Below are positions 31,298 through 63,094 of a stretch of 64,000 nucleotides of DNA, piece after piece (the stretch's first letter is position 1; each line of letters begins with the position of its first letter). A program made the position numbers and the translations under genes. This DNA is from Leclercia adecarboxylata (GTDB lineage Bacteria > Pseudomonadota > Gammaproteobacteria > Enterobacterales > Enterobacteriaceae), in assembly GCF_006171285.1 (NCBI RefSeq), contig NZ_CP040889.1, positions 3,224,001-3,288,000 of the forward strand. The letters are read 5' to 3'. Under the pieces are notes generated by a model that was not told where the DNA came from, ran no database searches, and saw nothing but the letters and a program-made list of their open reading frames with translations.

Positions 31298-31372
31298 ATC
31301 CACAAACCTAATCGCAAAACATAAGCGACGCAGGCGTCCTCCTCACATTTTGCACGGTAAAGGATGTTCCTG

Positions 31373-32455
31373 ATGACCAAAAAATTGTCCGCCCTGGCGC
31401 TGCTCGTGGCCGTCTCACTCAGCGGCTGCGCTGCACAGCACACCGCGACAACCGCACCCGCCGCTGACGCTCCGAAACCGGCCGCCCCTGCCCAGACCAA
31501 CGTTGTAAAACGCGATCTGGCTGACGGCCTGTACGAAATGGTCCTGAGCCCGAAAGGGGACGCGCTGTACGTTGCCAGCTCGGAAGGCTTTAAGGATGTG
31601 CAGGGCGGGGTGGTGTATAAGCTCGATCCGGCGACCCTTAAAACCATTGGTCGCAGCCATACCGATCTAAAAAACTTCGCCCTCGCTATCTCCCCGGACG
31701 GTAAAACCGTTTATGCCACCAACTCGCTGGACGGCGGGATCAGCGCCATCAGCACCGAAGACGGCAAAATCAAAAAGCGCCTGCTGTTTACCGAGCGCAA
31801 CAAAGAGGGCTACCCGTACGGCGCGCGTCAGGTTCTGCTGCATAACGACGTCCTGTACATCGGCGGCGTAGCCGATCCGGCGGTGATTTGGGTAGTGGAT
31901 GCCAAAACCCTGACGCTGAAAAAAACCATCAAAAACGCGGGGCAGTGGGTCACCGGCCTGATGTGGTCTGAACAGACTCAGCGTATCTATGTGGCAAACG
32001 GCGGCGGTGAAATTCTGATTGTTAATCCTGAGCGCAACCGCATCGAAAAACGCTGGAAGCCGCTCGGGGATAAACCGGCCCTGCTGCTGAACCTGGCGGA
32101 AGATCCGGCCACCGGTCGCCTGTTCGTCACCGACAACTCAAAAGCCAAAACCACGCTGGTGCTGGATATCCACACCGGGGCGCTCGTTAAACAGCTCGAT
32201 GTGGGCGATTCGCTGGCGGTGAAGTTCAACGCTAAGCGCAACGAGCTGTACATCACCCAGCGCGAAAGCGGCAAGCTGCTGAGCCTGGATGCCACGACCT
32301 ATGCCGTGAAGCAGAGCTGGGATCTGCCGCCGAATCCGAACAGCCTGCTACTGTCGGCGGACGGTCAGACGTTGTACGTCACCGTGAAACAGGCGTTCAA
32401 CAAAGATCACTCCACCAACGGGCCGGACAGCGTTGTCCGTATCGCCCTGAAATAG
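31373..32455 (+). CDS. YncE-like beta-propeller lipoprotein
   Basis: This 360-aa protein is a seven-bladed propeller like E. coli YncE (VYKLDPATLKTIGRSHTDLK, LAISPDGKTVYATNSLDGGI, NPNSLLLSADGQTLYVTVKQ) but with a lipoprotein signal, ALLVAVSLSGC, so Cys19 should be lipidated and the protein anchored in the periplasm. The +2 residue is alanine, which favours the outer membrane. A Thr/Ala/Pro linker follows (TATTAPAADAPKPAAPAQ). The ATG at 31373 is used because AAAGG is correctly spaced from it and is too close to the ATG at 31364. E. coli yncE is Fur-regulated and next to the TonB receptor gene yncD; here a TonB receptor follows 64 bp on, so the partnership is kept with a different receptor. 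Confidence 0.88.
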   Translation: MTKKLSALALLVAVSLSGCAAQHTATTAPAADAPKPAAPAQTNVVKRDLADGLYEMVLSPKGDALYVASSEGFKDVQGGVVYKLDPATLKTIGRSHTDLKNFALAISPDGKTVYATNSLDGGISAISTEDGKIKKRLLFTERNKEGYPYGARQVLLHNDVLYIGGVADPAVIWVVDAKTLTLKKTIKNAGQWVTGLMWSEQTQRIYVANGGGEILIVNPERNRIEKRWKPLGDKPALLLNLAEDPATGRLFVTDNSKAKTTLVLDIHTGALVKQLDVGDSLAVKFNAKRNELYITQRESGKLLSLDATTYAVKQSWDLPPNPNSLLLSADGQTLYVTVKQAFNKDHSTNGPDSVVRIALK

Positions 32456-32519
32456 ACGTTTTTATAACAATTAAGGCCCGGCAACGGGCCATTTTGCGCG
32501 AACTTTGAACGAGTTAATC

Positions 32520-34706
32520 ATGAACAACACCGGAAAAATGAACAAAACGCTGCTGGCCCTCGCCATCGGCACGATCGCTCATTCCGCCGTCGCGGCGGAG
32601 AGCAAAAAAGAAGAGACCATCGTGGTGCAGTCCGCTGCCAGCGACTTCAAACCCGGCGGCGACCAGCTGGTACCGGCCTTCCTGGACGGCCAGGTTGCAA
32701 ACGGCGGACGCATGGGGATGCTCGGTCAGCAAAATGCGATGGACGTGCCGTTTAATATCATCAGCTACACCTCTAAGCTGGTGGAAGATCAGCAGGCCCG
32801 CACCATTGCTGACGTGGTCGCAAACGATGCGGGCGTGCAGTCCGTGCAGGGCTACGGCAACAGCGCGGAGAGCTATCGCATTCGCGGTCTGAAGTTCGAC
32901 GGAGACGACATGACCTTCGGCGGACTCTCCGGCGTGCTGCCGCGCCAGGTAGTGGACGCCCAGATGGTGGATCGCATTGAGATCTTCAAAGGCGCCAACT
33001 CCCTGATGAACGGCGCAGCCAGCTCCGGCGTGGGCGGGATGATCAACCTTGAGCCGAAACATGCGGGCGCTACGCCGCAGGCGAAAGTGGGCGTGGACTA
33101 CACCTCCGATTCGCAGATTGGCACCACCCTGGATGCCGGTCGTCGCTTCGGCGATAACGACCAGTTTGGCGCCCGCGTCAACGTGGTTCACCGTGAAGGC
33201 GAGGCCCCGGTAGCCAACGATCGCCGCCGCACCACGCTGCTCTCCACCGGCCTGGACTATGCGGGCGATAAGTTCCGCAGCTCCGTGGACCTGGGTTATC
33301 AGATGAAAACCTTCCACGGCTCAGAAACCGGGGTCAATATCTCCGGCGTTGATTTCGTGCCCGAGCCGCCGAAAAACGATCGTAACTACTCGCAGAAATG
33401 GGCCTACAGCAACATCGAAAACGAATTCGGCATGTGGCGCAGCGAGTACGACATCACCGACAACTGGACGGCTTACACCGGTCTGGGTGCCCAGCACGCC
33501 CATGAAGAGGGGCTTTACAGCGGTGCGAAGCTGGTGGACAAGAGCGGCAAAGCCACCGCGTCGCGTCTCGATACCAACCGCATCAGCGACAGCGTGAGCG
33601 GCATGGCGGGCATCCGCGGTAACTTCGATACCGGTTTTGTGTCGCACAAGGTGAACGTCGGCTACTCAGCGATGAGCAAAAACGAGAAAATCGCCTGGAA
33701 GATGTCGGCCGCGAAGGATAACCCGGTCACCAACATTTATCACAATACCGGCGTGGATGCGCCGCCAAGCACTAACTTAAACGGCTCCGGCGGTAACTAC
33801 AGCGATCCGCTGACCAGCGGCCGCACCCGCACTCAGGGCTGGCTGCTGAGCGACACCCTCGGGGTGCTGGATGACACCCTGCTGTTCACCGTTGGGGCCC
33901 GTCATCAGAAGGTGGTGATCCGCGGCTATAACAAAATCACCGGTCACGAAAACGAGGCGGACAGCTTCGACGGCAGCCGCTGGATGCCGACCTATGGCGT
34001 GGTCTACAAACCGTGGGAGACGGTATCGCTGTACGCCAACCACACCGAGGCGCTGCAGCCGGGTAAAACCGCGCCAAACACCGCCACCAACTACGGCCAG
34101 AGCACCGGGATCGTCCACTCTAAGCAGAACGAAGTGGGCGTGAAGGCCGATTTCGGTCGCGTTGGCGGCTCGCTGGCGCTGTTTGAGATCAAAATGCCGT
34201 TCGCCATTCTCGACAGCCAGACCAAACACTACGGTCTGGATGCCGAGCAGCGTAACCGCGGCGTGGAGCTGAACGTCTTTGGCGAGCCGGTGCTGGGCCT
34301 GCGTCTGAACGCCAGCGCCACCTGGCTGCAGGCGGAGCTGACCAAAACCAACAACGGCGTTAACCAGGGCAATGACGCCATTGGCGTCCCGAGCTTCTAC
34401 GGCGTGCTGGGGGCAGAGTATGACATCAAGCCTGTCGACGGCCTGACCGCCACAGCCCGCGTAAACCACTCCGGCTCGCAGTATGCGGATCTCGCCAACA
34501 GCAAGAAACTGGACAGCTACACCACCCTGGATCTGGGCATGCGTTACCGCTTCGCGGTCAACAATGACCAGAACCAGATGACCGTTCGCGCCGGGATCGA
34601 AAACATCACCGACGAAAACTACTGGTCAAGCGTGGACGACGGCGGCACCTACCTGTTCCAGGGGGAGCCGCGCACCTTTAAGGTCTCTGTAGGCTACGAG
34701 TTCTGA
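32520..34706 (+). CDS. TonB-dependent siderophore receptor, FcuA-like
   Basis: This 728-aa outer-membrane receptor has a signal peptide (NKTLLALAIGTIAHSAVAA), a TonB box in EETIVVQSA, a plug domain (DVPFNIISYTSKLVEDQQAR, ESYRIRGLKFDG, IEIFKGANSLMNG) and a 22-strand barrel ending in FKVSVGYEF. The plug resembles FcuA-type ferric-hydroxamate receptors such as Yersinia FcuA; I cannot fix the ligand. It is not YncD. It is 64 bp after the YncE-like gene and probably shares its Fur-controlled promoter. The ATG at 32520 has GAG upstream; a TTG 15 bp earlier is less likely. Confidence 0.9.
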   Translation: MNNTGKMNKTLLALAIGTIAHSAVAAESKKEETIVVQSAASDFKPGGDQLVPAFLDGQVANGGRMGMLGQQNAMDVPFNIISYTSKLVEDQQARTIADVVANDAGVQSVQGYGNSAESYRIRGLKFDGDDMTFGGLSGVLPRQVVDAQMVDRIEIFKGANSLMNGAASSGVGGMINLEPKHAGATPQAKVGVDYTSDSQIGTTLDAGRRFGDNDQFGARVNVVHREGEAPVANDRRRTTLLSTGLDYAGDKFRSSVDLGYQMKTFHGSETGVNISGVDFVPEPPKNDRNYSQKWAYSNIENEFGMWRSEYDITDNWTAYTGLGAQHAHEEGLYSGAKLVDKSGKATASRLDTNRISDSVSGMAGIRGNFDTGFVSHKVNVGYSAMSKNEKIAWKMSAAKDNPVTNIYHNTGVDAPPSTNLNGSGGNYSDPLTSGRTRTQGWLLSDTLGVLDDTLLFTVGARHQKVVIRGYNKITGHENEADSFDGSRWMPTYGVVYKPWETVSLYANHTEALQPGKTAPNTATNYGQSTGIVHSKQNEVGVKADFGRVGGSLALFEIKMPFAILDSQTKHYGLDAEQRNRGVELNVFGEPVLGLRLNASATWLQAELTKTNNGVNQGNDAIGVPSFYGVLGAEYDIKPVDGLTATARVNHSGSQYADLANSKKLDSYTTLDLGMRYRFAVNNDQNQMTVRAGIENITDENYWSSVDDGGTYLFQGEPRTFKVSVGYEF

Positions 34707-51019: not shown

Positions 51020-51361
51020 ATGACTATTTCCGCTCAGGTTATCGACACTATCGTCGACTGGATTGACGACAATCTTCATCAGCCGTTGCGCATTGAGGAT
51101 ATTGCCCGGCATGCGGGCTACTCCAAATGGCACCTGCAGCGGCTGTTTATGCAGTACAAAGGGGAAAGCCTGGGGCGTTATATTCGTGAACGCAAGCTGC
51201 GGCTGGCGGCGCGGGATCTGCGTGAATCGGATGAAAAGGTGTACGACATCTGCCTGCGCTACGGCTTTGACTCCCAGCAGACTTTTACCCGCGTCTTCAC
51301 CCGCACCTTCAACCAGCCGCCCGGGGCGTATCGCAAGGATAACCACAGCCGGGCGCACTGA
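51020..51361 (+). CDS. ramA: RamA, AraC/XylS-family multidrug-resistance activator
   Basis: This 113-aa protein consists of two helix-turn-helix motifs only, like MarA and SoxS. It begins MTISAQVIDTIVDWIDDNLH, has the recognition helix regions GYSKWHLQRLFMQYKG and GFDSQQTFTRVFTRTFNQPP, and ends YRKDNHSRAH. It differs from Klebsiella RamA as I recall it at only a few positions. It raises acrAB-tolC expression and micF. The ATG at 51020 has GAGGGGGAG upstream; an in-frame opening to 50975 overlaps romA. Control is by RamR through the site before romA. Confidence 0.97.
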   Translation: MTISAQVIDTIVDWIDDNLHQPLRIEDIARHAGYSKWHLQRLFMQYKGESLGRYIRERKLRLAARDLRESDEKVYDICLRYGFDSQQTFTRVFTRTFNQPPGAYRKDNHSRAH

Positions 51362-51475: not shown

Positions 51476-53620
51476 TTACCAGCGGTAATTCACCGTCGCC
51501 GTCACCGTGCGGCCAATGCCGTAAAAGCACGCCGTATCGCTTGCGCAGGAGGCAACGTACTTCGTATCCGCCAGGTTGTTGACGTTGAACTGCACGCTTG
51601 CCCCTTTCAGGCTGCTGTTCATCTCGCCCAGATCGTAGCTCAGCATGGCGTCATACAGATCCACCGACGGCACTTTGAAGGTGTTCTTCGCATCGCCGTA
51701 GCTGGTGCCGATATAGCGCATGCCCACGCCTGCGGTCAGGCTCTTCAGCGCGCCGCCGGGCAGGGTGTAGCTGGCGAACGCGGAGGCCATATGCGCCGGG
51801 ATGCGCGCAGGCGTTTTGCCTTCCGTTCCCGCCACCGTTGTGCTCTCGGTTTTCGCATCCGTGTAAGTGTAAGAGCCAATCAGGTTGATGTTGTCCAGCA
51901 GCGTGGAGTGGATCTCCGCCTCAACGCCTTTCGAACGCACTTTGCCCGCGTTTTCGAACCAGCCTTCGGCGCTGTTGTAGGTCGCCACGTTATCCTGGGT
52001 TAAATCGTACAGCGCCAGGGTCATCAGGGTGGTACCGACCGGCTGATACTTCAGGCCGATTTCGGTCTGCTCGCCGGTGGTAGGTTTAAACGGCCCGACG
52101 CCCGGTGCCCGGTTGGTTTGCAGGTTCGGTTCAAACGAGGTGCTGTAGCTGATGTACGGCGACAGACCAACGTCGAAGGCGTACAGCAGGCCGGTACGCC
52201 AGGTAAATTTACTGTCGTTCTGCTGGGTGAAGCTGCTATCGGTGAAGTCGTTGGTACGCACTTCGCTCCAGTCGTAACGCCCGGAGAGCAGCCACTCCCA
52301 GTTATGCCAGCTCATCTGATCCTGCAGATACAGCCCCATCTGATCGAGATTTTGCTGCTCGTCGCTGGCGGTCCGGAAGCTGCTTTCATCCACATTCACC
52401 CCGTAAACCGGATTTTGCCAGTCGAGGTCGTACTGTGAACCGCTCCCGCGTTCCAGCAGCTGTTTATCTTTGCTGGTTTTGTAGTCAAAACCGCCGAGCA
52501 GGGTGTGGCTGACAGCACCGGTGTTCGCCAGATACTCCAGCTGATTATCCAGACCAAACTCATCCGTGGTACGTTCTTCATGCTGAGCGCGGCGGGTCAG
52601 TACCGAGCTGTTGGCGGCGCTGGTGGCGTAGACCAGATAACGATACTTCTGCTTGATGGTGGCGTAACGCGCGTTCTGGCGGAAGGTGAGGTTATCGGCG
52701 AACTGATGCTCCAGCTCGTAGCCGATCATCGTCTGCTCACGCCAGGATTGATCGTAATCCGGATCGCTGACGTTAAAGTCGCGCGGAATGTATTTGCCGT
52801 CGACGCTTTTTACCGTGCCGTACGCGGGCAGGAAGTTGCGGTATCCCGCATCGGGATCTTTCTGGTAGCTGGTCAACAGCGTAAAGCGGGTCTGATCGTT
52901 GGGATACCAGGTGATCGCCGGCGCAATCGCCATGCGCGTCTCTTTATAATCCTCCACCTGATTATGCTGGGTGCGGGCGATGCCGTTAACGCGATAGAGC
53001 ACCCGGCCGTCATCGCTGAGCTTGCCGCCGAAATCAAACGCGCCTTCCGCGAGGTCGTTATTGCCGGTGCGGAACTGAACGTTGTGAATGGATTCAGAGG
53101 TCGGGCGCTTGCTGGTCATGCTGATTAACCCACCCGGATTGACCTGGCCAAACAGGACCGAGGCCGGGCCGCGCACCAGCTCCACACGCTCCAGCAACCA
53201 GGGGTCAACCGTTCCCGTCTGTGACGAGGCGGTGGCGCCGAAACTTAACCCGTCGAGGAATTTCGGCACATAGCTAAAGCCACGCACAAACACTTCATCG
53301 TTACGGTTTGACGATCCGCGGTATTCGGTAAACACCCCCGCCGAGTAGCGCAGCGCCTGGGATACGGAGGTCACATCCTGCATGTTCATCTGATCGCGAG
53401 TGATCACCGAGACCGACTGCGGCGTCCTCACGATCTCCGCGCTGGTTTTGGTGGCGGAGAGGGTTTTGGTGGCCACGATGCCCTTCACCGGGGCGGTAGG
53501 TTCTTCACTCGTTCCCTGCGTCACCGTAATGGTTTCTTCTCCGTTTTCTGCCTGAGCCGCCACGCTAACCGTGGCCAGACTCAGGAGCCATGCCTGCATT
53601 ATCTTATTATTTTTAAACAT
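51476..53620 (-). CDS. TonB-dependent siderophore receptor, FhuA/FoxA-like
   Basis: This 714-aa outer-membrane receptor has a signal peptide (MQAWLLSLATVSVAAQA), a TonB box in GEETITVTQG, a plug with TPQSVSVITRDQMN, RGSSNRNDEVFVRGFSY, VELVRGPASVLFGQVNPGGL, and SMTSKRPT, and a barrel ending in GRTVTATVNYRW. This plug pattern is typical of the FhuA/FoxA/FiuA hydroxamate receptors, but the gene opposite is an enterobactin-esterase-type hydrolase, so the ligand could be an ester-containing siderophore. The gene has a Fur-type box in its promoter. Located between ramA and ybdJ, where Salmonella has neither gene. Confidence 0.9.
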   Translation of the reverse strand: MFKNNKIMQAWLLSLATVSVAAQAENGEETITVTQGTSEEPTAPVKGIVATKTLSATKTSAEIVRTPQSVSVITRDQMNMQDVTSVSQALRYSAGVFTEYRGSSNRNDEVFVRGFSYVPKFLDGLSFGATASSQTGTVDPWLLERVELVRGPASVLFGQVNPGGLISMTSKRPTSESIHNVQFRTGNNDLAEGAFDFGGKLSDDGRVLYRVNGIARTQHNQVEDYKETRMAIAPAITWYPNDQTRFTLLTSYQKDPDAGYRNFLPAYGTVKSVDGKYIPRDFNVSDPDYDQSWREQTMIGYELEHQFADNLTFRQNARYATIKQKYRYLVYATSAANSSVLTRRAQHEERTTDEFGLDNQLEYLANTGAVSHTLLGGFDYKTSKDKQLLERGSGSQYDLDWQNPVYGVNVDESSFRTASDEQQNLDQMGLYLQDQMSWHNWEWLLSGRYDWSEVRTNDFTDSSFTQQNDSKFTWRTGLLYAFDVGLSPYISYSTSFEPNLQTNRAPGVGPFKPTTGEQTEIGLKYQPVGTTLMTLALYDLTQDNVATYNSAEGWFENAGKVRSKGVEAEIHSTLLDNINLIGSYTYTDAKTESTTVAGTEGKTPARIPAHMASAFASYTLPGGALKSLTAGVGMRYIGTSYGDAKNTFKVPSVDLYDAMLSYDLGEMNSSLKGASVQFNVNNLADTKYVASCASDTACFYGIGRTVTATVNYRW

Positions 53621-53684
53621 TTTTATTTAACATCCTTGGTTGCTATCGCCATATAAACACCGATCAATTCGCCCAAATGATATT

Positions 53685-53703
53685 GCAAACTATTACCATT
53701 TGC
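53685..53703. promoter_or_regulatory. Fur box between the receptor and the esterase
   Basis: Read on the minus strand, GCAAATGGTAATAGTTTGC matches the 19-bp Fur consensus at 12 positions and is nearly palindromic (TGCAAA / TTTGCA). It lies in the 121-bp divergent gap and can repress both genes when iron is sufficient. Confidence 0.7.
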
Positions 53704-53741
53704 ATTAGCGTTGTTAACAAATTTTGGGGGGACACGCGGTA

Positions 53742-55310
53742 ATGAAGAGGGCATGGAGTGGTTTGTTATTAGGGATCGGGGCGCTGCCCGCCGTGGCGGC
53801 GACGTGCGAACCCTCGTCCCTGCAAGGGGAGGTTCAGGGAAAGTTTGATGCCAGCGGTGAAGTCTGTTTTAGCCTGCCAGAGTTGGGTGAAAACTATGTT
53901 TCGGCCACGCTGAACGGCGTAACCGATGCCCGCCAGCTGGACGGCCAGAACCGCCGTATCCGCACCCTGGTTGAAAATGGCCCTGCCGACGGGGAACACA
54001 CCCTGCTGTTTGCCCTGCCGGTGAAGCAGAACAGCTCCCTGGTGCTGCATGGCGAAGCCGGCAAGCCCTGGCGTTTTCAGTGGCGGATGAAAGAGACTTC
54101 TGCCTTACCGCGCGTACAAATGCTGATGCCTGAAAGCCCGACGCTGCAGGCGCTGGCTAAAACGGTTGCTGCCGGGGGAAGTACCGATGCGTTCTGGCAG
54201 GCGCAAATTCGGCAGGGAACGCCGATGGTGGAGCCGGTTGACGCGCACCACAAGCGCGTCACCTTCCTGTGGCGTGGCGCGCGCGGCAACGTCTTTATTC
54301 TCGGTTCTCCGGCGGGGGATCACGATCCGCTGTTCCGCCTCGGTAACAGTGACGTCTGGTTCCGCAGCTTCGTCGTGCCCGCCGACACGGTGATGCAGTA
54401 CAAGCTCGCCCCGGATGTGCCGACAATTGACGGCTCTCCCCGCGAACAGCGACGGGCGATCCTCGTCAGCGCCCAGGCCGATCCGCTAAACCCGAACACC
54501 TTTGGTGAACAGAAAACCGATCGCTGGAACCGCTACTCTCTGCTCGATCTCAGCCCGGCGCGCTACTGCTCCGTTCAGGCCACCTCCAGGCCGCTGACGC
54601 AGGGCTCGCTGAGCCGCCAGACGCTGACCAGCACTATTCTGGGTAATTCCCGGGAAGTAATGATCTACAAACCGCGTGGGCCGCAGCCTGCACGCTGGAC
54701 GTTAATCCTCTTTGACGGCCAGATCTATCAGGACGAGTACCATTTCGCCAACGTGCTGGATGGCCTGATTGCCCGTCACCATCTCCCGCCGGTCAACGTG
54801 GTGTTTGTCGACAGTCTCGATCACGCCCGACGCAGTAAAGAGTTGCCGCCGAATGCGGATTTTGCCGACTTTATGGCGCACGAACTACTGCCGTGGTTGC
54901 GCGGGCAGGGGGTCGCCATGCAGCGGCAGAAAACCGTGCTGGCGGGGTCAAGCTATGGCGGGATCGCCTCTTCATGGGTGGCGCTGCGCTATCCGCGTCT
55001 CTTTGGGAATGTGCTGAGCCTGTCCGGCTCCTACTGGTGGGCCCCGAAAGGGGAAGCGCCAGGCTGGCTGACGCGTCAGTACCAGCAGTCACCGCAGTAT
55101 CCGGTGCGCTTCTGGCTACAGGCCGGGAAGTTCGAAACCACCGGGCCGGGGGGAGGGATCTATCGCACGACCCAGGATTTTGAACAGGTTTTGCGGCAGA
55201 AAGGCTACCGTGTCAGCTTCCATCCGTGGTCCAGCGGCCACGACTACGCGGCCTGGTGTGAAGCCCTGATCCACGGCATGCGCGATTTAACCGGCTTACG
55301 CCGCCCGTGA
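53742..55310 (+). CDS. Exported Fes-like siderophore esterase
   Basis: This 522-aa protein has a signal peptide (MKRAWSGLLLGIGALPAVAA), an extra N-terminal domain of about 110 residues, a Fes-type N-terminal domain (VTFLWRGARGNVFILGSPAG, LAPDVPTIDGSPREQ), and an alpha/beta hydrolase domain. The nucleophile is S404 in AGSSYGG. FVDSLDHARRSKELPPNADF matches the Fes block, and SSGHDYAAWCEAL carries the catalytic His. Fes itself is cytoplasmic, so a secreted enzyme of this design suggests hydrolysis in the periplasm, like IroE or PfeE. A TTG at 53724 opens the frame but GGGGG spaced before the ATG at 53742 makes that the start. Divergent from the receptor gene, over a Fur box. Confidence 0.9.
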   Translation: MKRAWSGLLLGIGALPAVAATCEPSSLQGEVQGKFDASGEVCFSLPELGENYVSATLNGVTDARQLDGQNRRIRTLVENGPADGEHTLLFALPVKQNSSLVLHGEAGKPWRFQWRMKETSALPRVQMLMPESPTLQALAKTVAAGGSTDAFWQAQIRQGTPMVEPVDAHHKRVTFLWRGARGNVFILGSPAGDHDPLFRLGNSDVWFRSFVVPADTVMQYKLAPDVPTIDGSPREQRRAILVSAQADPLNPNTFGEQKTDRWNRYSLLDLSPARYCSVQATSRPLTQGSLSRQTLTSTILGNSREVMIYKPRGPQPARWTLILFDGQIYQDEYHFANVLDGLIARHHLPPVNVVFVDSLDHARRSKELPPNADFADFMAHELLPWLRGQGVAMQRQKTVLAGSSYGGIASSWVALRYPRLFGNVLSLSGSYWWAPKGEAPGWLTRQYQQSPQYPVRFWLQAGKFETTGPGGGIYRTTQDFEQVLRQKGYRVSFHPWSSGHDYAAWCEALIHGMRDLTGLRRP

Positions 55311-58870: not shown

Positions 58871-59950
58871 ATGAAACTGACTTTCCTGCGCGCCGCCCTG
58901 GCCAGCGCGCTCCTCGTCTGCACCCTTAATTCCGCCTTCGCCGCCGCCATTCCCGTGCGCGTCGCCACCGTGGAGCAAACCGCCCACGCCGCGGAGCGTC
59001 AAATCCCGGGCCGCATCGAAGCCATTCACACCGTTGAGCTGCGGGCCCGCACGGAAGGCGTCATCACCCGGACCCACTTTCGCGACGGGCAGTATGTGAA
59101 AAAAGGCGACGTGCTGTTTGAGCTGGACGATGCCGAGCCGCGTGCCGCCGTGCGCCTGGCCCAGGCCGAGGTGAAAAGCGCCGAAGCCACGCTGCGTCAG
59201 GCGCAGCAGCAGCTCTCCCGCTTCGAGAGCCTGGGCAACAACAACGCCATCAGCCGCCATGACGTGGACAACGCCCGCATGCAGCGCGACGTGGCCAGCG
59301 CCGCGCTGGAGCAGGCGCGAGCCCGGCTTGAGGCCCGCAACCTGACCCTGACCTACACCCGCATCATCTCCCCCATCGACGGCCGCGTGGGGCACAGCCC
59401 GTTCCACGTGGGCAGCCTGGTGAATCCTGCCAGCGGCGTGCTGGCGGACGTGGTGCAGCTCGACCCGATCCGCATCGCCTTCGCGCTGGAAGAGGGGGCG
59501 TTTGCCACCAAAGCCGGGCAGCATGCGGATATCCACGCCATGAAGCAGGCCTGGCAGGCGCTGATCGACAGCAACGGCCAGCGCGTAAGCGGGGAACTGA
59601 CCTCGGTGGATAACCGTATCGACCCGCGCACCGCCAGCGTGATGCTGCGTGCCGAGTTCGCCAACCCGCGCCATCAGTTGCTGTCCGGCGGTAACGTGAA
59701 TGTGTACCTGCGCCCGGCAAGCGTTCAGCCGGTGCTGACCCTGCCTGCTGCGGCGGTCCAGCAAAACGGCGAGGGGTTCTTCGCCTGGGTGGTTAACGCC
59801 GACGGCAAAGCCGAAAAACGCACGTTGAACATCGCCGGGCAGATCGGCCAGCAGTTCCAGATTGCATCCGGTGTTAAGCCCGGTGAGCGAGCTATCGCTG
59901 ACGGCGCGCAGCGCGTGTCGTCGGGCGCTACAGTCCAGATACTGAATTAA
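58871..59950 (+). CDS. RND efflux periplasmic adaptor
   Basis: This 359-aa membrane-fusion protein has a signal peptide (RAALASALLVCTLNSAFA then AAIPVRV) that lacks a proper lipobox (LLVC), so it is probably a free periplasmic or weakly anchored adaptor. Barrel-sandwich halves surround an alpha-hairpin: GRIEAIHTVELRARTEGVIT, FRDGQYVKKGDVLFELDD, QAEVKSAEATLRQAQQQLSR, TYTRIISPIDGRVGHSP. It is 9 bp before the RND pump gene, so they are one unit. No outer-membrane channel gene follows; TolC is the likely partner. It is an AcrA relative but I cannot equate it with OqxA or EefA. Confidence 0.92.
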   Translation: MKLTFLRAALASALLVCTLNSAFAAAIPVRVATVEQTAHAAERQIPGRIEAIHTVELRARTEGVITRTHFRDGQYVKKGDVLFELDDAEPRAAVRLAQAEVKSAEATLRQAQQQLSRFESLGNNNAISRHDVDNARMQRDVASAALEQARARLEARNLTLTYTRIISPIDGRVGHSPFHVGSLVNPASGVLADVVQLDPIRIAFALEEGAFATKAGQHADIHAMKQAWQALIDSNGQRVSGELTSVDNRIDPRTASVMLRAEFANPRHQLLSGGNVNVYLRPASVQPVLTLPAAAVQQNGEGFFAWVVNADGKAEKRTLNIAGQIGQQFQIASGVKPGERAIADGAQRVSSGATVQILN

Positions 59951-59959
59951 GGAGCCATC

Positions 59960-62900
59960 ATGCTGACGTTTTTCATCAAACGCCCGCGCTTCGCGATGGT
60001 CATTGCGCTGGTTGTTGCCCTGATGGGGGCTATCGCCCTGAAGATCATTCCCGTGGAGCAGTATCCGCAGATCACCCCCCCGGTGGTGAATGTGTCAGCC
60101 TCATGGCCCGGCGCCAGCTCGGCCGACGTGGCGGAGGCCATCGCCACGCCGCTGGAGACCCAGCTTAACGGCGTGGATCACATGCTGTACATGGAGTCCA
60201 CCAGCTCTGACGAAGGCAGCTACAGCCTGAACATCACTTTTGCCGCGGGCACCGATCCGGATCTCGCCGCCATCGACGTGCAGAACCGCGTGGCCCAGGC
60301 CGTGGCGCAACTGCCCACCGAGGCCCAGCAAAACGGCGTGCAGGTGCGCAAGCGTGCCACCAACCTGATGATGGGGGTAAGTCTTTACTCACCCAACAAC
60401 AGCCACACGCCGCTGTTCGTCAGCAACTACGCCAGCACCCAGGTGCGCGAGGCGCTGGCCCGTTTACCGGGCGTCGGGCAGGTACAGATGTTTGGCGCGC
60501 GGGACTACAGCATGCGCATCTGGCTGCGACCGGATCGGATGAACGCCCTGAACGTCACCACCGACGACGTGGCCCAGGCGCTGCGCGAGCAGAACGTGCA
60601 GGGGGCGGCGGGGCAGGTGGGAACGCCGCCGGTGTTTAACGGCCAGCAGCAGACCCTGACCATCAACGGGCTGGGGCGCTTAAATCAGGCCGACGACTTT
60701 GCCGGGATCGTCATTCGCGCGGGCGAGATGGGCCAGCTGGTGCGCCTGAAGGATGTCGCCACCATTGAACTCGGCTCCCGCAGCTACAGCTCCGGCGCTC
60801 AGCTTAACGGTCATGACTCGGCGTATCTGGGGATCTACCCGACGCCATCCGCTAACGCCCTGCGGGTGGCCGACGCGGTTCGTGCCGAGCTGGAGCGTCT
60901 CTCGACGCGCTTCCCGGACGATCTGACGTATGAGGTGAAGTTTGACACCACCACCTTTGTTGCGGCGACCATCAAGGAGATTGGCGTCTCGCTGGCGCTG
61001 ACCCTGCTGGCGGTTGTGGTGGTGGTCTCCCTGTTCCTGCAGAGCTGGCGCGCCACGCTGATTGTCGCTCTCGCTATTCCGGTGTCGCTGGTGGGCACCT
61101 TTGCGGTGCTCTATACCCTGGGGTATTCCGCCAACACCCTGAGCCTGTTTGCCATCATTCTGGCCCTGACCATGGTGGTGGATGACGCCATCGTGGTGGT
61201 GGAGAGCGTCGAAACCCTGATGGCGGAAGGGCTGAGCCGTACGGCGGCCACCGCCCAGGCGCTGCGCCAGATTGCCGGGCCGGTGATCGCCACCACCCTG
61301 GTGCTGCTGGCGGTGTTTGTGCCGGTGGCGCTGCTGCCGGGGATCGTCGGCGAGCTGTTCCGCCAGTTCGCGGTGACGCTCTCGACGGCGGTTACCCTCT
61401 CAAGCCTGGTGGCGCTGACCCTGACGCCTGCCCTGTGCGCCATGCTGCTGCGCCCGCGTCCTGCGCGCCCGGCGGCAATTTATCGCGGCTTCAACCGCGG
61501 GCTGGATGCCACCCGCAACGGGTACTCCCGCATCGTCAGCCTGTTTAACCTGCGCCCGTGGCTGGCGCTGCTGGCCACCGCAGGGGCGGCCGCGGTAGTG
61601 GTCTTCAGCTTTATGTCGATGCCAAAAGGCTTCCTGCCCCAGGAGGATCAGGGCTACTTCTTTGCCAGCGTCCAGTTGCCGGAAGCGGCCTCGCTGGAGC
61701 GCACCGAAGCGGTGATGAAAACCGCCCGGGAGCTGATCGCTAAAAATCCGGCGGTGGAGGACGTGATTCAGGTCTCCGGATTTAACATTCTCAACGGCAC
61801 CAGCGCCTCCAACGGCGGCTTTATCTCCGTGATGCTGAAGGACTGGAGCGAGCGCCCCGCGCTGGATGAGGTGATGGGCACGCTGCAGCGCCAGCTGCTG
61901 GCCCTGCCGGAAGCCACCATCATGACCTTCGCGCCGCCGACGCTGCCGGGGCTGGGCAACGCCTCCGGCTTCGACCTGCGCATTCAGGCCCAGGCGGGGC
62001 AAAGTCCGGCGGAGCTGGAGCGCGTGACGCGCGAAGTGCTGGCGAAAGCCAACCAGCATCCGCAGCTGAACCGGGTGTTCACCACCTGGAGCAGCAACGT
62101 GCCGCAGCTGACCCTCACCGTCGATCGCGAGCGGGCCGCGCGTCTCGACGTGCCGGTGTCGCGCATCTTCAGCAGCCTGCAGACCGCCTTTGGCGGCACC
62201 CGCGCCGGGGATTTCAGCGTCAACAACCGCGTCTACCACGTGGTGATGCAAAACGAGATGCAGTGGCGCGAGCGGGCGGAGCAGATCGGCGAGCTGTTCG
62301 TGCGCAGCAATAACGGCGAGCGGGTACGCCTGAGCAACCTGGTCACCATCACGCCGACCGTCGGCGCGCCGTTCCTGCAGCAGTACAACCAGTTCCCGTC
62401 CGTCTCCGTGAGCGGCTCGGCGGCAGCCGGGGTCAGCAGCAGTACGGCGATGGCGGCGATGGGGCAGCTGCTGGCGGAGCACCTGCCCGCCGGGTATGAC
62501 TACGCCTGGAGCGGGATGTCATATCAGGAGCAGCAGACCGGGAATCAGGCGATCTGGATTGTGCTGGCGGCGGTGGTGATGGCGTGGCTGTTCCTCGTCG
62601 CCCAGTATGAGAGCTGGACGCTCCCGGCAAGCGTCATGCTCTCGGTGCTGTTCGCCATCGGCGGGGCGCTGGTGTGGCTGTGGGTTGCCGGGTACGCCAA
62701 CGACGTCTACGTGCAGATTGGCCTGGTCCTGCTGATCGCCCTCGCGGCCAAAAACGCGATCCTGATCGTCGAGTTTGCCCGCGCGCGGCGCAATGAGGGG
62801 ATGGCGATTGTTGATGCGGCGCGCGAAGGGGCCACGCGCCGTTTCCGGGCGGTGATGATGACCGCCGTGTCGTTCATTATCGGCGTACTACCGATGATGC

Positions 62901-63094
62901 TGGCGACCGGGGCGGGTGCCCAGAGCCGTCGCATCATCGGCACCACGGTGTTCAGCGGTATGCTGGTGGCCACCCTGGTGGGGATTGTCTTTATCCCGGC
63001 GCTGTTTGTGCTGTTCCAGCGCCTGCGCGAGTGGGGGCACCGCCTTACGGACTCGTCGCCCACAGATCGCAGTGCTTCTGCACCAGAGAAATAA
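59960..63094 (+). CDS. RND multidrug efflux pump (HAE1 family)
   Basis: This 1044-aa AcrB-like proton antiporter has helix 1 ([20 protein letters not shown]), two large periplasmic loops, the proton-relay aspartates in [15 protein letters not shown] of helix 4, and the lysine in [18 protein letters not shown] of helix 10. Gene order adaptor-pump suggests it forms a tripartite system with TolC. The substrates are not clear. Its C-terminus ([16 protein letters not shown]) overlaps the end of ybdK by 50 bp in convergent orientation. RamA, encoded 8.6 kb away, activates efflux genes, but no marbox was identified here. Confidence 0.94.

Follow-up and report, generated by a model that had tools for sequence, protein, structure and literature searches.

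A gene pair in Leclercia adecarboxylata raises the question of which siderophore is taken up by a FhuA-like TonB-dependent receptor whose gene is divergent from that of an exported Fes-type esterase. The pair lies in a stretch of 64,000 nucleotides, called here the window (contig NZ_CP040889.1 of assembly GCF_006171285.1, positions 3,224,001 to 3,288,000; assembly size 5.76 Mb). The receptor gene (714 aa) occupies positions 51476..53620 on the reverse strand, the esterase gene (522 aa) positions 53742..55310 on the forward strand, and 121 bp separate them. A check of the open reading frames (ORFs) gave both genes the positions found in an earlier note made from the sequence alone, which had read them as a hydroxamate-type receptor and a periplasmic esterase that import and open an ester-containing siderophore. 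Based on the results below, we suggest that the pair probably serves the Fur-regulated uptake of chrysobactin-type catecholate siderophores that contain ester links and are made by other bacteria. In outline the earlier reading stands, as a receptor and an often adjacent exported esterase for an ester-containing siderophore; the hydroxamate type of the receptor and its supposed misfit with the esterase are not supported.

The receptor and its gene company elsewhere

The receptor carries Plug and barrel domains above the Pfam cut-offs. Its best NCBIfam model is FhuA (666 bits, below the curated cut-off of 803), and the FoxA model gives 551 bits with a cut-off of 1300, so the description as FhuA/FoxA-like holds at the family level. 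Elsewhere the same genome encodes a separate FhuA together with fhuCDB (L101), and also a FoxA (1373 bits, above the NCBIfam cut-off); the window receptor is not beside fhuCDB. In a tree of 60 rows, and in a second one of 45 rows from which the longest branches and some near-copies were removed, it clustered with Dickeya proteins named ferrichrysobactin receptor; this clade has support 100/99 and excludes FhuA and FoxA. Its identity was 57.8% with Fct of D. dadantii, 53.2% with Fct of D. chrysanthemi, 38.0% with FhuA of E. coli, 35.6% with the FoxA of its own genome and 23.5% with FhuE. A database protein of 89% identity is named "ferrichrysobactin receptor [Lelliottia jeotgali]"; other names listed were ferrichrome receptor, FhuA and malleobactin receptor.

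At 14 positions that we take to be the ferrichrome contacts of FhuA, the window receptor agrees with FhuA at one (R81), and eight of the nine aromatic positions are not aromatic; it agrees with D. dadantii Fct at nine, one of them a shared gap. Arginine is found at the presumed FhuA positions 244 and 391, the latter not being kept in L097 and L071. Judging by these comparisons, the receptor groups with the Fct-type ferrichrysobactin (catecholate) receptors, apart from FhuA and FoxA. The earlier note had called it hydroxamate-type and had named a firm grouping with ferrioxamine or ferrichrome receptors, together with an esterase inactive on siderophore esters, as a result that would count against its own proposal; the trees agree neither with the hydroxamate type nor with such a grouping. 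FhuA-like sequence is easily misread as hydroxamate specificity, and this misreading is corrected here. In the excerpts to which all our citations refer, Fct is the outer membrane receptor for ferrichrysobactin (PMC6637903), and the title of the 1996 paper of Sauvage (reference list of PMC2771747) calls it homologous to hydroxamate receptors. An Fct-like receptor 70% identical to that of Dickeya undicola is listed on a plasmid of Enterobacter ludwigii (P0236) and others on a Pantoea plasmid, because of which the producer-type receptor may be mobile.

In a family sample of 295 genomes, the receptor (called at E <= 1e-170) was present in 42; the secreted esterase adjoined it in 15, was located elsewhere in 2 and was lacking in 25. 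A large nonribosomal peptide synthetase (NRPS) gene lay near the receptor in 20 of these 25. For 17 this was established from the receptor stretches, which were examined for 22 of the 25 genomes (all but G176, G184 and G292), and for those three from coordinates and a match of 61–68%. A Fes homologue was found beside the receptor in all 17 NRPS-bearing stretches and in G176 (G184 and G292 are outside this count). A Fes-type gene or fragment and no NRPS gene were seen near the receptor in G113 and G119, and neither gene in G022, G167 and G251; the genome search gave no NRPS match for these five. In 8 of the 17 stretches (L079–L082, L086, L087, L095, L096), four genes of the size of EntC, E, B and A, judged by length only, adjoined the receptor. 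Against the earlier view that such a receptor does not fit an enterobactin-type esterase, the clade in other genomes adjoins a Fes homologue as well as an NRPS of catechol type.

The second module of the NRPS resembled EntF at the serine pocket in 15 of 17 frames; the frames of L116 and L117 were short, and no EntF-like second module was found there. In the first module, Asp or Glu replaced the pocket His in all 17, which suggests a basic amino acid, since the acidic residue aligns with the pocket His of EntF. The neighbouring pocket position is ambiguous (a gap and Trp in the alignment, Glu in an ungapped reading by eye). An additional epimerisation-domain motif, HHxxxDGVSW, occurred in 14 of the 17 and not in L122, L130 and L131; the domain was judged from length and this one motif, since the NCBIfam table gave the best 25 of 104–108 families. 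According to PMC8480324, the CbsF plan includes an epimerisation domain and D-Lys, and the FreF plan L-Lys without that domain; the NRPSs beside this receptor clade follow the CbsF/FreF plan. Locus L090 contains an Fct-like receptor and a Fes homologue beside FhuC/FhuB-like ATP-binding cassette permease genes and no NRPS gene; this may be a further arrangement for piracy, in which the Fes protein has no signal peptide.

The esterase and the shared promoter

The longest ORF of the esterase begins with TTG at 53724, the likely start being the ATG at 53742. Enterochelin_N (PF11806, positions 54255..54560 after a shift of six residues to the ATG start) and Esterase (PF00756, 54630..55286) were both above the Pfam cut-offs. 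S404 (codon 54951–54953) and H500 were invariant among 55 aligned sequences including that of the window, and the S404 motif, the NADF block and the histidine at the terminal end were confirmed as the earlier note had described them. Also in agreement with that note, a signal peptide can be read by eye at residues 1–20 (53742..53801), with no lipobox; the cleavage site was likewise placed by eye, and residues 1–19 have a predicted local distance difference test score (pLDDT) below 50. The hydrophobic N-terminus is present in most of the 55 sequences and not clear in L066, L048, P0341, P0350 and P0351.

The extra domain of ~110 residues at the N-terminus, already noticed earlier, corresponds to residues 21–130 (53802..54131). 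In the AlphaFold model (mean pLDDT of 90.8), residues 28–118 contain only beta strands, and Cys22 and Cys42 are mostly conserved in the alignment. No Pfam family was found for this domain in the window copy, and a profile search against solved structures gave a single match (E 1.1), taken as chance; its resemblance by eye to a pre-peptidase C-terminal (PPC) beta domain is our assumption. In the structure comparison, only residues 138–521 were covered by at least one fifth of the rows, and PfeE and IroE aligned essentially to residues ~280–519. The predicted fold has the two domains of Fes and includes the catalytic Ser and His.

Block 53676..53710 of the divergent promoter contains overlapping Fur-box-like sites. 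The Fur box previously placed at 53685–53703 matches a 19-bp consensus, which we take to be that of Fur, at 12 of 19 positions, and a better register lies at 53679–53697 (13/19). Such a match is weak alone, because 10 sites within the window score at least 13. The box gains from conservation: across 23 loci, including 9 that lack the receptor, the mean column agreement was 0.90 in the block versus 0.53 in the remaining intergenic region. From this block we infer Fur control of the shared promoter.

Based on the above results, we propose the following mechanism. Upon iron starvation, Fur would leave the shared promoter. The Fct-type receptor would then bring a ferric chrysobactin-type triscatechol across the outer membrane. 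The candidate ligands are trilactones of the type (2,3-dihydroxybenzoate – basic amino acid – Ser)3, such as frederiksenibactin and cyclic trichrysobactin, and their linear forms. The exported esterase, presumably located in the periplasm, would open the seryl ester ring there by means of Ser404 and His500, as PfeE and Cee open the trilactone of enterobactin (PMC8001512). Subsequently, iron might be freed in the periplasm, or weaker linear fragments might go inward via catecholate permeases. Substrate, location, hydrolysis and the inner-membrane step are thus proposed from sequence. Among the titles and abstract openings searched, with few subscription journals covered, no publication on this receptor–esterase pair was found; further literature drawn on includes PMC3795760, PMC13251462, PMC10734418 and PMC9470620.

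Co-occurrence and alternative explanations

The co-occurrence of the two genes, for which the earlier note had called for a survey, was assessed in several samples. Among 60 genomes of the genus, the esterase was present in 32 and the receptor in 22, always beside the esterase; 10 had the esterase only (G584 and G598 being incomplete drafts) and 28 neither. Both genes were broken or partial in G620, and the receptor of G588 had one stop. In the family sample the esterase matched at 1e-40 in 38 genomes, six of which (G240, G040, G176, G257, G209, G098) matched only from residue 132 and look like ordinary Fes. In the 32 genomes with the longer type, an Fct-like receptor adjoined in 16, was elsewhere in 2 and was absent from 14; 11 of the adjoining pairs were divergent and 4 tandem, and in G028 both genes were broken. 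The pair is therefore often adjacent, in 22 of 32 esterase genomes of the genus and 16 of 32 of the family, rather than rarely so. A chrysobactin-type NRPS was found in none of these 32 family genomes (18 with only an EntF-like match at 33–43%, 14 with none at E <= 1e-140; for 5 of the 32, the best 18 candidates were scored), nor was a match found in the genome of the window.

A set of 49 loci, found by peptide patterns of the window esterase, is biased. A receptor relative of at least 45% identity adjoined in 32 (partial only in L011, L043, L047 and L056), no receptor in 13, a different TonB gene in 3 (L050, L052, L054) and nothing in L057. On a quick esterase tree, with five rows lacking a label, the receptor appears or disappears 11 times, and at least 5 of these changes are forced. 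In an order sample of 295 genomes, 13 matched the esterase, 5 of them outside the family: a TonB gene follows the esterase in L150 (best model CirA, under the cut-off) and L151, a FhuA/FoxA-like one precedes it in L153, and none was seen within the short stretch examined in L149 and L152. Distant secreted esterases in L063, L064, L065, L066, L067 and L077 have no adjoining receptor and stand beside a gene of ~480–490 aa, which in L063, the one tested, encodes alkaline phosphatase; the alkaline phosphatase, trehalase, DUF218 and Na/Pi cotransporter genes beside certain distant esterases gave no clue to function. The pair is present in Enterobacter, Lelliottia, the Klebsiella oxytoca group and Raoultella, which would give these common opportunists a testable route for stealing chrysobactin-type siderophores; for Citrobacter koseri both genes are listed, each on its own. 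The receptor could also matter for siderophore–antibiotic conjugates.

The esterase stands without a receptor in 10 of the 32 esterase genomes of the genus and in 14 of the 32 of the family, which invites another explanation. It might be a general periplasmic hydrolase of catechol trilactones, acting on enterobactin and the glucosylated and linear forms of it as well as on chrysobactin types; it would then work with several receptors, and the divergent one would be optional. The ratio of nonsynonymous to synonymous substitution rates was 0.04–0.12 in eight esterase-only pairs and 0.05–0.19 in four receptor-bearing pairs; by this sequence measure the esterase is under purifying selection in genomes without the receptor, and the promoter block is kept in 9 aligned esterase-only loci. 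Moreover, the genome of the window has an EntF-like NRPS and Fes, and esterase relatives adjoin CirA-like receptors in L050, L052 and L150. Since the esterase is kept where the receptor is lacking, it probably also serves other ligands or receptors. However, the receptor was without the esterase in 0 of 22 genomes of the genus sample, and the pair recurs in both divergent and tandem order. We regard this general-hydrolase explanation as rather unlikely, yet as the likeliest of the alternatives.

The remaining explanations concern the receptor. A hydroxamate receptor, as the earlier note had it, with an esterase for a hydroxamate ester siderophore is improbable: coprogen, fusarinine C and triacetylfusarinine C (TAFC), together with the candidates vicibactin and salmycin, are set low by the receptor tree and the gene neighbourhoods. 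Still less credit is due to a redundant ferrichrome or ferrioxamine transporter with an unrelated neighbour, which would account for the FhuA/FoxA-family sequence but not for both curated cut-offs being missed, for FhuA and FoxA elsewhere in the genome or for the clade being so often paired with Fes-type genes.

Within the preferred reading, foreign chrysobactin-type catecholates, the chirality of the ligand can be considered. In the 45-row tree, the producers with the epimerisation motif (12 included, of 14 found) form one separate clade (100/100), and the clade of the window (14 rows, 99/98) includes one producer, L097, whose NRPS has no such motif. The placement of the other motif-less producers, L071 and L072, is open in this tree; in the 60-row tree they join the side of the window at 96/76. 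These placements weakly suggest that the ligands of the pair are L-amino-acid (non-epimerised) forms. Tentatively, one may go further and imagine that the pair is a widespread module for the piracy of triscatechols with a basic amino acid, and that siderophore chirality decides which receptor subclade is present. The receptor would then accept specifically the L-Lys or L-Arg forms, frederiksenibactin among them, and the exported Fes, new in its beta domain, would be a periplasmic hydrolase dedicated to these forms. Whether receptors of the outer membrane can tell apart the mirror-image Fe(III) complexes of these siderophores is a question raised in PMC8480324, and the two subclades, one tied to NRPSs with the motif and one partly to NRPSs without it, are a ready pair for this question.

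Surroundings of the pair and known systems

The pair is flanked by the drug-efflux regulator gene ramA (51020..51361, forward strand; NCBIfam ramA_TF 225.5 bits, cut-off 180) on one side and a P-type ATPase gene on the other. The genes upstream of ramA are presumably ramR and romA. Compared with Leclercia sp. 29361, the nearest of the named loci, identity was 98% for nfsB and ramA, 94% for romA and 95% for the ATPase. An enterobacterial nfsB-ramR-romA-ramA-esterase locus is present in a record titled Chryseobacterium sp. 18061 (L037), which is for this reason probably mislabelled or contaminated. Elsewhere in the window, an RND efflux adaptor and permease (58871–63094; the permease exceeds the TIGR00915 cut-off) lie near the ramA locus, and at 31364–34706 another TonB-dependent receptor of siderophore type directly follows a beta-propeller lipoprotein that resembles YncE (307 bits, below the cut-off of 400).

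The fct-cbs chrysobactin locus of Dickeya has a receptor of the same clade, whose gene in stretch L081 (Dickeya undicola) is likewise divergent from that of a Fes homologue; the locus differs in that the genome of the window has no matching NRPS and in that the window esterase has a predicted signal peptide and the extra domain. CbsH is a Fes homologue in Dickeya. Among 19 producer-side or receptor-side Fes homologues, L083 was a fragment, and inspection by eye revealed no clear signal peptide in the other 18; the ORFs of L079, L080 and L091 as called mechanically begin upstream of the probable start. The cytoplasmic enterobactin esterase Fes also has no signal peptide, unlike the window esterase with its predicted signal peptide and extra domain, which scored 211.8 bits against the curated Fes model (PRK10439), under the cut-off of 222. 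Given its predicted signal peptide, the window esterase may be an exported trilactone hydrolase comparable to those of the PfeA/PfeE system in Pseudomonas aeruginosa and of Cee in Campylobacter, where uptake involves a periplasmic trilactone esterase (PMC8001512); however, PfeE, IroE and Cee consist of the hydrolase domain only, whereas the window esterase adds Enterochelin_N. Finally, no NRPS match of the frederiksenibactin (fre) or cyclic trichrysobactin type was found in the genome of the window, but the NRPSs beside this receptor clade in other genomes have the CbsF/FreF plan of those clusters, and 3 of the 17 lack the epimerisation motif, just as FreF lacks the domain.

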